64,000 nt of DNA from an uncultured Balneola sp. GTDB lineage: Bacteria > Bacteroidota > Rhodothermia > Balneolales > Balneolaceae. The position numbers and the translations under genes are program-made. The notes beneath the pieces are model-generated. The model was not told the DNA's origin and searched no databases. It saw only the letters and a program-made list of their open reading frames with translations. Below, piece after piece: positions 61,986 to 63,916 of the stretch. The stretch's first letter is position 1; each line of letters begins with the position of its first letter. The stretch covers positions 1 through 64,000 of the forward strand of contig CABZVB010000003.1 in the NCBI GenBank assembly GCA_902529115.1, in the 5' to 3' direction.

Positions 61986-62633
61986 ATGGAAAAAATATCC
62001 ACCATCATTGCCGATGGTAACGAAATATTCCGCCAAGGACTTCGATCTATCTTATCGGACTATCACTTCGATATAGTCTCGGAGATCGATAATGGTGCAC
62101 TAGTCTTAAGCGCATATGAAATTGAGAAACCTCAACTATTAGTGCTCTCTTTTCAACTTCCGGAGATTTCGGGAATACATTTAACTAACAAACTGATCGA
62201 GAAATTTCCGGAGACTCGCATACTTATATTGGCTGATGACAACAAAGAAGATACACTAAATGATTTTTTAGCCTCTGGTGCTCAAGGTCTGCTAATGAAA
62301 AGTGCAGACAGGATCGAGTTGGTAGATGCAGCTACCAAAGTAGGAGAGGGAGATACCTATCTAGGAAAAATTTATTCTAAAATGATGACTCGGGAATATC
62401 GAAAACTCACCGCTTACCGAAAATCCAAAAAAATCATTACCCGTAGGGAACGCGAGATACTACACTTACTCATACATGGAAACACTAGCACAGAGATTGC
62501 ATCTATCTTGTTTATTTCTCCACGTACCGTTGACAAGCATAGAACCAATCTACTTAAAAAGCTAGACCTCAAAAATACAGCTAGCTTGGTACGATTTGCC
62601 CTAGAAAACAAAAATAATCTAGAGCACATGTAA
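61986..62633 (+). CDS. LuxR/NarL-type response regulator with a pseudo-receiver domain
   Basis: 215 residues. The receiver domain (~1-120) keeps the fold and the switch Lys105 (GLLMKSADR), but the phospho-acceptor is Ser55 (LLVLSFQLPEISG; family LLDIxMPxxxG) and the acidic pair is reduced to Asp10 (IIADGNEIFRQGL; family DDH). Residues ~145-210 form a canonical LuxR helix-turn-helix (TRREREILHLLIHGNTSTEI; ILFISPRTVDKHRTNLLKKL). Such pseudo-receivers cannot be phosphorylated in the usual way and may be constitutive or bind a ligand or partner. No sensor kinase is adjacent. A very strong ribosome site precedes the ATG. Confidence 0.9.
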   Translation: MEKISTIIADGNEIFRQGLRSILSDYHFDIVSEIDNGALVLSAYEIEKPQLLVLSFQLPEISGIHLTNKLIEKFPETRILILADDNKEDTLNDFLASGAQGLLMKSADRIELVDAATKVGEGDTYLGKIYSKMMTREYRKLTAYRKSKKIITRREREILHLLIHGNTSTEIASILFISPRTVDKHRTNLLKKLDLKNTASLVRFALENKNNLEHM

Positions 62634-62780: not shown

Positions 62781-62886
62781 TTGAGCAATCTATTAGCAAA
62801 TCCTATGTTTAGATTGCAAATGGGGTAATAGCCGTCTGTAGATGATATTAGCCGTCTTCCATTGAGTTGGGGACGGCTTTTTTTTG
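62781..62886 (+). ncRNA. Possible small RNA with promoter and duplicated TAGCCGTCT element
   Basis: A -33-like TTG (62781-62783), then 20 bases, then TATGTTTA (62804-62811, one mismatch from TAnnTTTG) could start a transcript near 62818 that ends at the strong terminator 62850-62886, giving ~65-70 nt. It contains two copies of TAGCCGTCT (62829-62837, 62849-62857) twenty bases apart, either of which can pair with GACGGCT of the terminator. No open frame is evident. The alternative is that this is simply the terminator of the regulator transcript. Confidence 0.35.
62850..62886 (+). terminator. Strong rho-independent terminator
   Basis: AGCCGTC (62850-62856) pairs with GACGGCT (62872-62878), followed by a T9 run (62878-62886). 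A second TAGCCGTCT upstream offers an alternative pairing partner. Confidence 0.8.
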
Positions 62887-63023: not shown

Positions 63024-63149
63024 TTATTTTTTCATTTCCTTTACACTAAACTTTATTCCTATCACAATAAGTGAACCAATTAAAAAACTCATTCCTAACT
63101 TTACAACTAAAAACCAATTAGTTGTTAACATATCACTTATGTAATCCAT
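63024..63149 (-). CDS. 41-residue single-pass membrane protein
   Basis: From ATG 63149 a 41-residue frame reads MDYISDMLTTNWFLVV, then KLGMSFLIGSLIVIGIKF and SVKEMKK. One hydrophobic helix (~12-33) with a Lys-rich C-terminal tail fits a small inner-membrane protein, N-out/C-in. It lies 48 bases after the 62-residue gene and is the last of the four-gene small-protein cluster. No family is recognised. The evidence is its position and membrane character only. Confidence 0.5.
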   Translation of the reverse strand: MDYISDMLTTNWFLVVKLGMSFLIGSLIVIGIKFSVKEMKK

Positions 63150-63197
63150 AGTTAGTGACTACAAATGGAATTGTAGATCGATAATTTTAATGTTGTT

Positions 63198-63386
63198 TTA
63201 TTTATTTTTCCTACTATTCCCAAACCTGCTAAAATCACCCATACCATCATAATCATTTGTATCTAAATGGGAATAGTATTGGGAATTTTTTTGATCACTT
63301 TTTTCTTCCTTATCAAAAATAAATAAACCAGAAATGAAAGTTATGATCACAATGATACCTATTATAAGTATTAAATTAGTGATCAT
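63198..63386 (-). CDS. 62-residue single-pass membrane protein
   Basis: 62 residues: a helix (NLILIIGIIVIITFISGLFI, residues ~4-23) followed by a charged, Asp/Ser/Tyr-rich cytoplasmic tail (DKEEKSDQKNSQYYSHLDTN, DYDGMGDFSRFGNSRKNK). The ATG (63384-63386) shares bases with the TGA of the 38-residue gene upstream (ATGA), so translation is coupled. Not a family I recognise. Confidence 0.65.
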   Translation of the reverse strand: MITNLILIIGIIVIITFISGLFIFDKEEKSDQKNSQYYSHLDTNDYDGMGDFSRFGNSRKNK

Positions 63387-63499
63387 TTTTTTGGTCCATT
63401 GTCTTTTTCATTCAGATTACGAAATTCATAAATAGTGATTCCAAAACCAAGAATGAATAAGAAAGTGACAAAAATTCCAATGACAAATACATTACTCAT
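63383..63499 (-). CDS. 38-residue single-pass membrane protein
   Basis: 38 residues from ATG 63499: one helix (VFVIGIFVTFLFILGFGITI, ~4-23) and a charged tail (YEFRNLNEKDNGPKK). It overlaps the 67-residue gene by eight bases (ATGAGTAA) and the 62-residue gene by ATGA. Coupling on both sides argues that it is a real gene in spite of its size. Its shape recalls the small helix subunits of respiratory complexes, but no sequence link can be claimed. Confidence 0.6.
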   Translation of the reverse strand: MSNVFVIGIFVTFLFILGFGITIYEFRNLNEKDNGPKK

Positions 63500-63695
63500 T
63501 ATTTTTCCTTTCTATCTTATACTGTATCACGAGATTTTTAAGATAGTTACCGAATCCAAGCAAAGATGGAACCCATAATCCAATAAATACACCTTCTTCT
63601 TTGTACCCGTTAAACCAAAAGTAGATTGAGACTGCCATAGACAATGCAGCTGATAATAGAATGAATATGTCTGAAGTCTTTATAAGCTTGTTCAT
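63492..63695 (-). CDS. 67-residue two-helix membrane protein
   Basis: 67 residues with two helices (DIFILLSAALSMAVSIYFWF; GVFIGLWVPSLLGFGNYL) separated by NGYKEE, ending in a basic tail (KNLVIQYKIERKNNE). It is the first gene of the four-gene cluster and has a good ATG at 63695. Small proteins with a GLWVPSLL-like second helix occur in other marine bacteria as far as I remember, but the function is unknown. Confidence 0.7.
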   Translation of the reverse strand: MNKLIKTSDIFILLSAALSMAVSIYFWFNGYKEEGVFIGLWVPSLLGFGNYLKNLVIQYKIERKNNE

Positions 63696-63835: not shown

Positions 63836-63842
63836 AAAAAAG

Positions 63843-63916
63843 TAGCGTGGGACGGAATTGAACCGTCGACCTCACGATTATGAGTCGTGCGCTCTAACCA
63901 TCTGAGCTACCACGCC
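63843..63916 (-). tRNA. tRNA with CAT anticodon (Met, or Ile2 if lysidine-modified)
   Basis: Minus-strand cloverleaf: acceptor GGCGTGG pairs with CCACGCT (first pair G-U), D-arm GCTCAGATGGTTAGAGC, anticodon stem CACGA/TCGTG around CTCATAA with anticodon CAT, T-arm ACGGTTCAATTCCGT. Length 74 with discriminator A and no encoded CCA. The first pair is G-U, not the C-A mismatch of initiator tRNA, so it is elongator Met or Ile2. Confidence 0.93.

Follow-up and report, generated by a model that had tools for sequence, protein, structure and literature searches.

The last kilobase of the 64-kb window analysed here (which opens a 144.5-kb contig from a draft genome of 1.97 Mb whose closest named relatives are Balneolaceae/Balneola MAGs) carries four adjacent genes, A to D, for very small membrane proteins. 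Comparison with relatives indicates that A and B are an ancient pair in this "four-gene operon", and C and D younger members. We propose, at a probability of about 0.42, that A-B is an accessory subunit or assembly factor of the alternative complex III (ACIII)/terminal-oxidase branch, and that C and D are later additions.

An earlier note on this DNA had described four minus-strand open reading frames of 67, 38, 62 and 41 residues between 63024 and 63695, each with one or two hydrophobic helices and the first three overlapping, and all of this was found (Table 1). Gene A encodes two helices; for B, C and D the translations show one each. D starts downstream of C, without overlap, after a gap of 48 bp. 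The AlphaFold model of A, of modest confidence (mean pLDDT 70.5, pTM 0.37), is a plain hairpin with helices H4-29 and H32-66. The distribution of charges suggests that both ends of A, and the C-terminal tails of B, C and D, are cytoplasmic. Low G+C content had also been remarked upon; the last kilobase has a G+C fraction of 0.31, and most of the window one of 0.35-0.45.

Upstream, the unit is bounded by a tRNA-Met gene and a terminator-like site and, downstream, by a converging response regulator; it therefore stands alone. Beyond the tRNA-Met gene, relatives within the genus carry a prolyl-tRNA synthetase-like gene on the opposite strand. Between the unit and the regulator there is an inverted repeat, a possible terminator, whose long loop explains its absence from the results of a terminator consensus scan. 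Relatives within the genus retain the short inverted repeat of the C-D gap, in which L034 shows one compensatory C-G to T-A double change; this repeat is a possible processing or attenuation element. An upstream motif, GGAACTAAAA-N(4-6)-GGTAT, was considered as a regulon signature and rejected, as it is conserved but occurs only once in the genome.

Table 1. Features of the four-gene unit and its surroundings (window positions).
Feature	Position	Strand	Description
Gene A	63492..63695	-	ORF, 67 aa, ATG start; two-helix hairpin; conserved S-D, W-F and G-x-W-V-P-S residues
Gene B	63383..63499	-	ORF, 38 aa, ATG start; one helix, then charged tail containing E-F
Gene C	63198..63386	-	ORF, 62 aa, ATG start; one helix and tail with motif DYDGMGDFSRF
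Gene D	63024..63149	-	ORF, 41 aa, ATG start; one helix
A/B overlap ATGAGTAA, 8 bp	63492..63499	-	Seen in sequence; -8 junction in 6/6 genus genomes
B/C overlap ATGA, 4 bp	63383..63386	-	Seen in sequence; GTGA in four relatives
Short inverted repeat CTACAA...TTGTAG, C-D gap	63159..63176	-	Weak, about -5 to -7 kcal/mol
tRNA-Met, upstream boundary of the unit	63842..63916	-	
Terminator-like site after tRNA-Met, between tRNA-Met and gene A	63827-63813	-	
Inverted repeat AGCCGTC...GACGGCT, between the unit and the converging response regulator	62850..62878	.	Sequence and genus alignment; putative terminator
LuxR-type response regulator	61986-62633	+	Named from sequence; converges on the unit

Six genomes of the genus (that of the window and relatives L034-L038) share all four frames, their order and the junctions of -8 and -4, and synteny around the unit is conserved in the genus. 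The start codon of C is GTG in four of the six, giving a GTGA overlap there. Variation is dominated by third codon positions, the variable columns at first, second and third positions numbering 5/1/38 in A, 5/5/23 in B, 17/9/41 in C and 11/9/23 in D. Estimates of dN/dS (NG86-type, six genomes) are 0.023, 0.071, 0.116 and 0.152 for A, B, C and D, respectively, and for each gene the observed pN/pS was lower than in 200 of 200 column-shuffled controls. It is thus well supported that the four ORFs are genuine coding genes under purifying selection, as the earlier note had held; loss of the frames or overlaps and absence of coding constraint, which it had named as grounds for abandoning the idea, were looked for in relatives, and conservation and constraint were found instead. 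Its view that the proteins are made together is likewise supported: co-expression is very probable, and A-B-C-D would be co-transcribed as one unit. The four proteins are unrelated to one another and so, as it had said, are not duplicates. One further genome, G005, has a D-bearing fragment at a contig start; two others of the genus, with completeness of 86% and 63%, yielded no match.

A search for A among 117 relatives gave homologues in 36, the weakest match being doubtful, and 15 residues are invariant across 16 diverse sequences. Outside the genus, B immediately follows A in every one of the 23 intact Balneolales loci, which span three families; a 24th locus, cut by a contig end, was left out of this count. 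The junctions between the two genes in these 23 loci are -8 in eight (nine with an alternative start), -4 in nine, +2 in three and +4 in two. The genes flanking A-B differ among Balneolales genera, so that what is conserved is the pair and not its neighbourhood. That A-B is an ancient coupled pair is well supported by these comparisons.

Variations on this arrangement were also noticed. Genome G018 carries A-B twice, at sites some 39 kb from each other (L015, G018:C2:455592-456097, and 416220-416535), one of them with an extra B-like frame upstream of A; this B-A-B order recalls the fusion genes described below. Two genomes of family f5, within the same order, encode a B homologue with the tail HRWPxMEGxPEEQRR and no A match nearby (L229:8024-8329 and L230:7778-7960). 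The window's own genome has a weak second B-like frame (L231:6564-6722, on G000:C21) just after a flagellin gene; this gene and a second flagellin gene share their first 75 residues.

Across the phylum, a profile of A matched 132 of 392 genomes; many of the weaker hits represent separate subfamilies. The A-type genes of families f39 and f53 are found within the ACIII operon, between actB and actC, where the gene order is A, a B'-A' fusion (91-100 aa) and B; the fusion is present in most of these clusters and absent at G347:C159. A profile of B built from Balneolales sequences only, searched against 17,641 open frames, recovered six f39/f53 B genes (E 7.8e-17 to 1.9e-6) and, in three fusions, the B' part (E 2.2e-5 to 0.0018). 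Because these loci had first been picked through A, B was also scanned for across whole genomes. At E <= 0.001, 30 of the 392 phylum genomes matched, 22 of them Balneolales and eight others; among the eight, the match in G432 (E 7.6e-4) contains an internal stop and was not considered credible. The seven credible genomes (E <= 2.2e-5) all belong to f39 and f53, and in all seven an ActD match is present on the same strand of the same contig, at a distance of 1.7-1.8 kb from the B match; actC separates the two, and A-type genes adjoin B. In clusters L106 and L114 the full order is ctaB, actA, actB, A, B'A', B, actC, actD, actE, actF, ActG-like, coxB, coxA, the genes being named from recognisable sequence; ActD was confirmed by profile in the seven genomes. 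G120 gave no ActD match; a haem A synthase-like gene in this genome has an A-B'A' pair two genes upstream of it. As the seven act-linked genomes come from one order, they may reflect one or two events.

The window genome has an ACIII operon of its own (contig C15), in which ActD, NrfD and the multihaem cytochrome were confirmed with Pfam. It contains neither A nor B, and an ActG-like gene of its own (129 aa) stands in the usual place after actF; in many Balneolaceae, likewise, ACIII is present without A-B. The A-B genomes checked all have ActD except G120, but this co-occurrence was set aside as support, since ActD is found in 298 of the 392 genomes and lineage is a confounder. A distant A-like subfamily (YYF...GLWAPTI...G.[YF]N; L113, L118, L121 and L137, from f39, f23 and f26) adjoins CrcB-like fluoride exporter and DUF190-like genes, without B; these low-scoring genes were judged to be a different subfamily.

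No family had been recognised for the four proteins in the earlier note, and searches of Pfam, NCBIfam, PADLOC and PHROGs likewise gave only sub-threshold scores. The recurring score of A to the 7TMR-DISM 7TM domain (PF07695; 17.7-19.7 bits against a cut-off of 29, over the last two helices only) was treated as a match of helix composition. PADLOC returned only KwaA, at E 0.009, to the helix of C, and PHROGs only weak matches to families of unknown function. Searching the PDB with profiles of A, B and C returned only hits attributable to chance, among them chemokine receptor helices, and none of these profiles matched a solved ACIII chain. A tblastn search with A against plasmids found no match.

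C and D have histories of their own. The C family occurs in 23 of 245 genomes of the class and, away from the genus, is encoded alone in varied neighbourhoods. Its members are one-helix orphan microproteins found order-wide (window 63198-63386; L143-L147, L155-L162), in which a variable helix and linker precede an invariant DYDGMG near the C-terminus and then a conserved arginine, the tail consensus being [TNV]DYDGMG[TDN][FY]-x-R[YF]. This near-invariant tail looks like a putative binding motif. Neighbouring genes (S9 peptidase-like, photolyase-like, aromatic hydroxylase-like and deacetylase-like) were considered as a guide to the function of C and rejected as too variable. D was matched solely within the genus and is probably the youngest member of the operon. 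No result links C or D to respiration.

Coupling of the genes, adjacency in 23 of 23 loci and the existence of a fusion gene together argue that A and B work together. The stop-start overlap would couple their translation and so yield similar amounts of the two proteins, and the hairpin of A could assemble with the single helix of B, whose charged tail is probably cytoplasmic, into a three-helix unit. The position of the homologues within act operons suggests ACIII as partner, at least in the f39/f53 lineage. On our preferred reading the A-B unit would act as a supernumerary subunit or assembly factor in the respiratory branch formed by ACIII and the haem-copper oxidase, and C, with its DYDGMG tail, and D would have joined the A-B transcription unit later. 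For Balneolaceae, where A-B is encoded apart from the ACIII operon, we infer the respiratory role. Confidence in the reading as a whole is held at 0.42 because A-B lies apart from ACIII in the window genome, the act-linked genomes come from one order, ActD is widespread and no structural match was obtained. The earlier suggestion of subunits of a membrane complex gains support for A and B from their coupling, the natural B-A fusions and the homologues in ACIII operons of distant relatives. A wider scenario is speculative and, on balance, rather doubtful: A-B would be an unrecognised ACIII/oxidase accessory module, old in Bacteroidota (in the GTDB sense) and lost in many lineages, which was relocated in Balneolales to a separate operon that recruited two membrane microproteins, one of them with an order-specific DYDGMG docking tail.

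It is almost as probable that A-B is instead a general small membrane module, such as a transporter modulator or membrane-stress protein, for which the place in ACIII operons of one lineage is secondary and the partner in Balneolaceae is a different one. The varied neighbourhoods of A-B in Balneolales (aldo/keto reductase-like, EVE-like and NUDIX-like genes, tRNA-Met), which hold no respiratory genes, would fit such a role, as would the occurrence of B without A in f5 genomes and the lower-scoring A-like genes beside CrcB/DUF190-like genes in f26, f39 and f23 genomes. The CrcB-linked proteins, however, score far lower and are not accompanied by B, and the credible B matches outside Balneolales all fall within act operons. 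A self-contained complex of four subunits (a channel, small transporter or sensor) is improbable by comparison with either. The genes are adjacent, their order and overlaps are kept in six genomes and the unit stands alone between tRNA-Met and the converging response regulator, but A-B occurs without C and D outside the genus, C occurs elsewhere without A-B, and D is confined to the genus; this coming and going of members makes for a poor fit to an obligate four-subunit complex. No result pointed to the small transporter that the earlier note had raised.

The same note had also thought of a toxin/immunity-like set, and small size and hydrophobicity are what the proteins have in common with a small hydrophobic toxin/immunity or phage-defence set. 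We regard this as very unlikely: the four proteins are unrelated to one another and under purifying selection, they occupy a fixed chromosomal place in conserved genus synteny, A-B has long been kept vertically under strong purifying selection, PADLOC and PHROGs gave no credible match and A had no plasmid match. Chance open frames in A+T-rich DNA, which low local G+C and short lengths might bring to mind, are scarcely credible given the codon-structured conservation of all four genes and the long-range homologues of A, B and C. For these three the explanation is refuted; for D the argument comes from the genus comparison (omega 0.152, with 0 of 200 shuffles as low).

Genes of this size are easily missed by annotation, and the locus illustrates how operons of membrane microproteins may grow by added members. 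The accessory membrane parts of ACIII are poorly known, and A-B, with its coupling, its fusion form and its place in act operons, is a testable candidate for one. In the R. marinus ACIII structure one density was left unassigned, and ActG, which has one predicted helix and whose gene is missing from some act clusters, was not placed (PMC5928083). Like ActG, A and B are small membrane proteins, encoded within act operons in the f39/f53 relatives; unlike it, A has two helices, the linked A-B genes lie between actB and actC, and the window genome has an ActG-like gene besides A-B.

Small one-helix proteins are established parts of other respiratory enzymes, among them CydX, the small subunit of cytochrome bd oxidase (PMC4325964), and CcoQ and CcoS (PMC10903887), and CcmD of the haem exporter is a single helix oriented N-out, C-in (PMC10903887). 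None of the four proteins matched the CydX, CcoQ, CcoS or CcmD families in Pfam or NCBIfam at E up to 1. CydX resembles A-B in being a very small membrane protein with the kind of respiratory accessory role proposed for the pair, but differs from the four in that it is a one-helix protein acting with cytochrome bd. CcoQ and CcoS of the cbb3 oxidase are single-helix proteins of a size similar to that of B, C and D; no cbb3 genes were present in the neighbourhoods read. CcmD is similar to B in size and probable topology, but no ccm genes lie beside B in those neighbourhoods. As proposed, then, A-B takes its place among the small accessory membrane proteins, a known kind, as a member that matches no Pfam or NCBIfam model tested.
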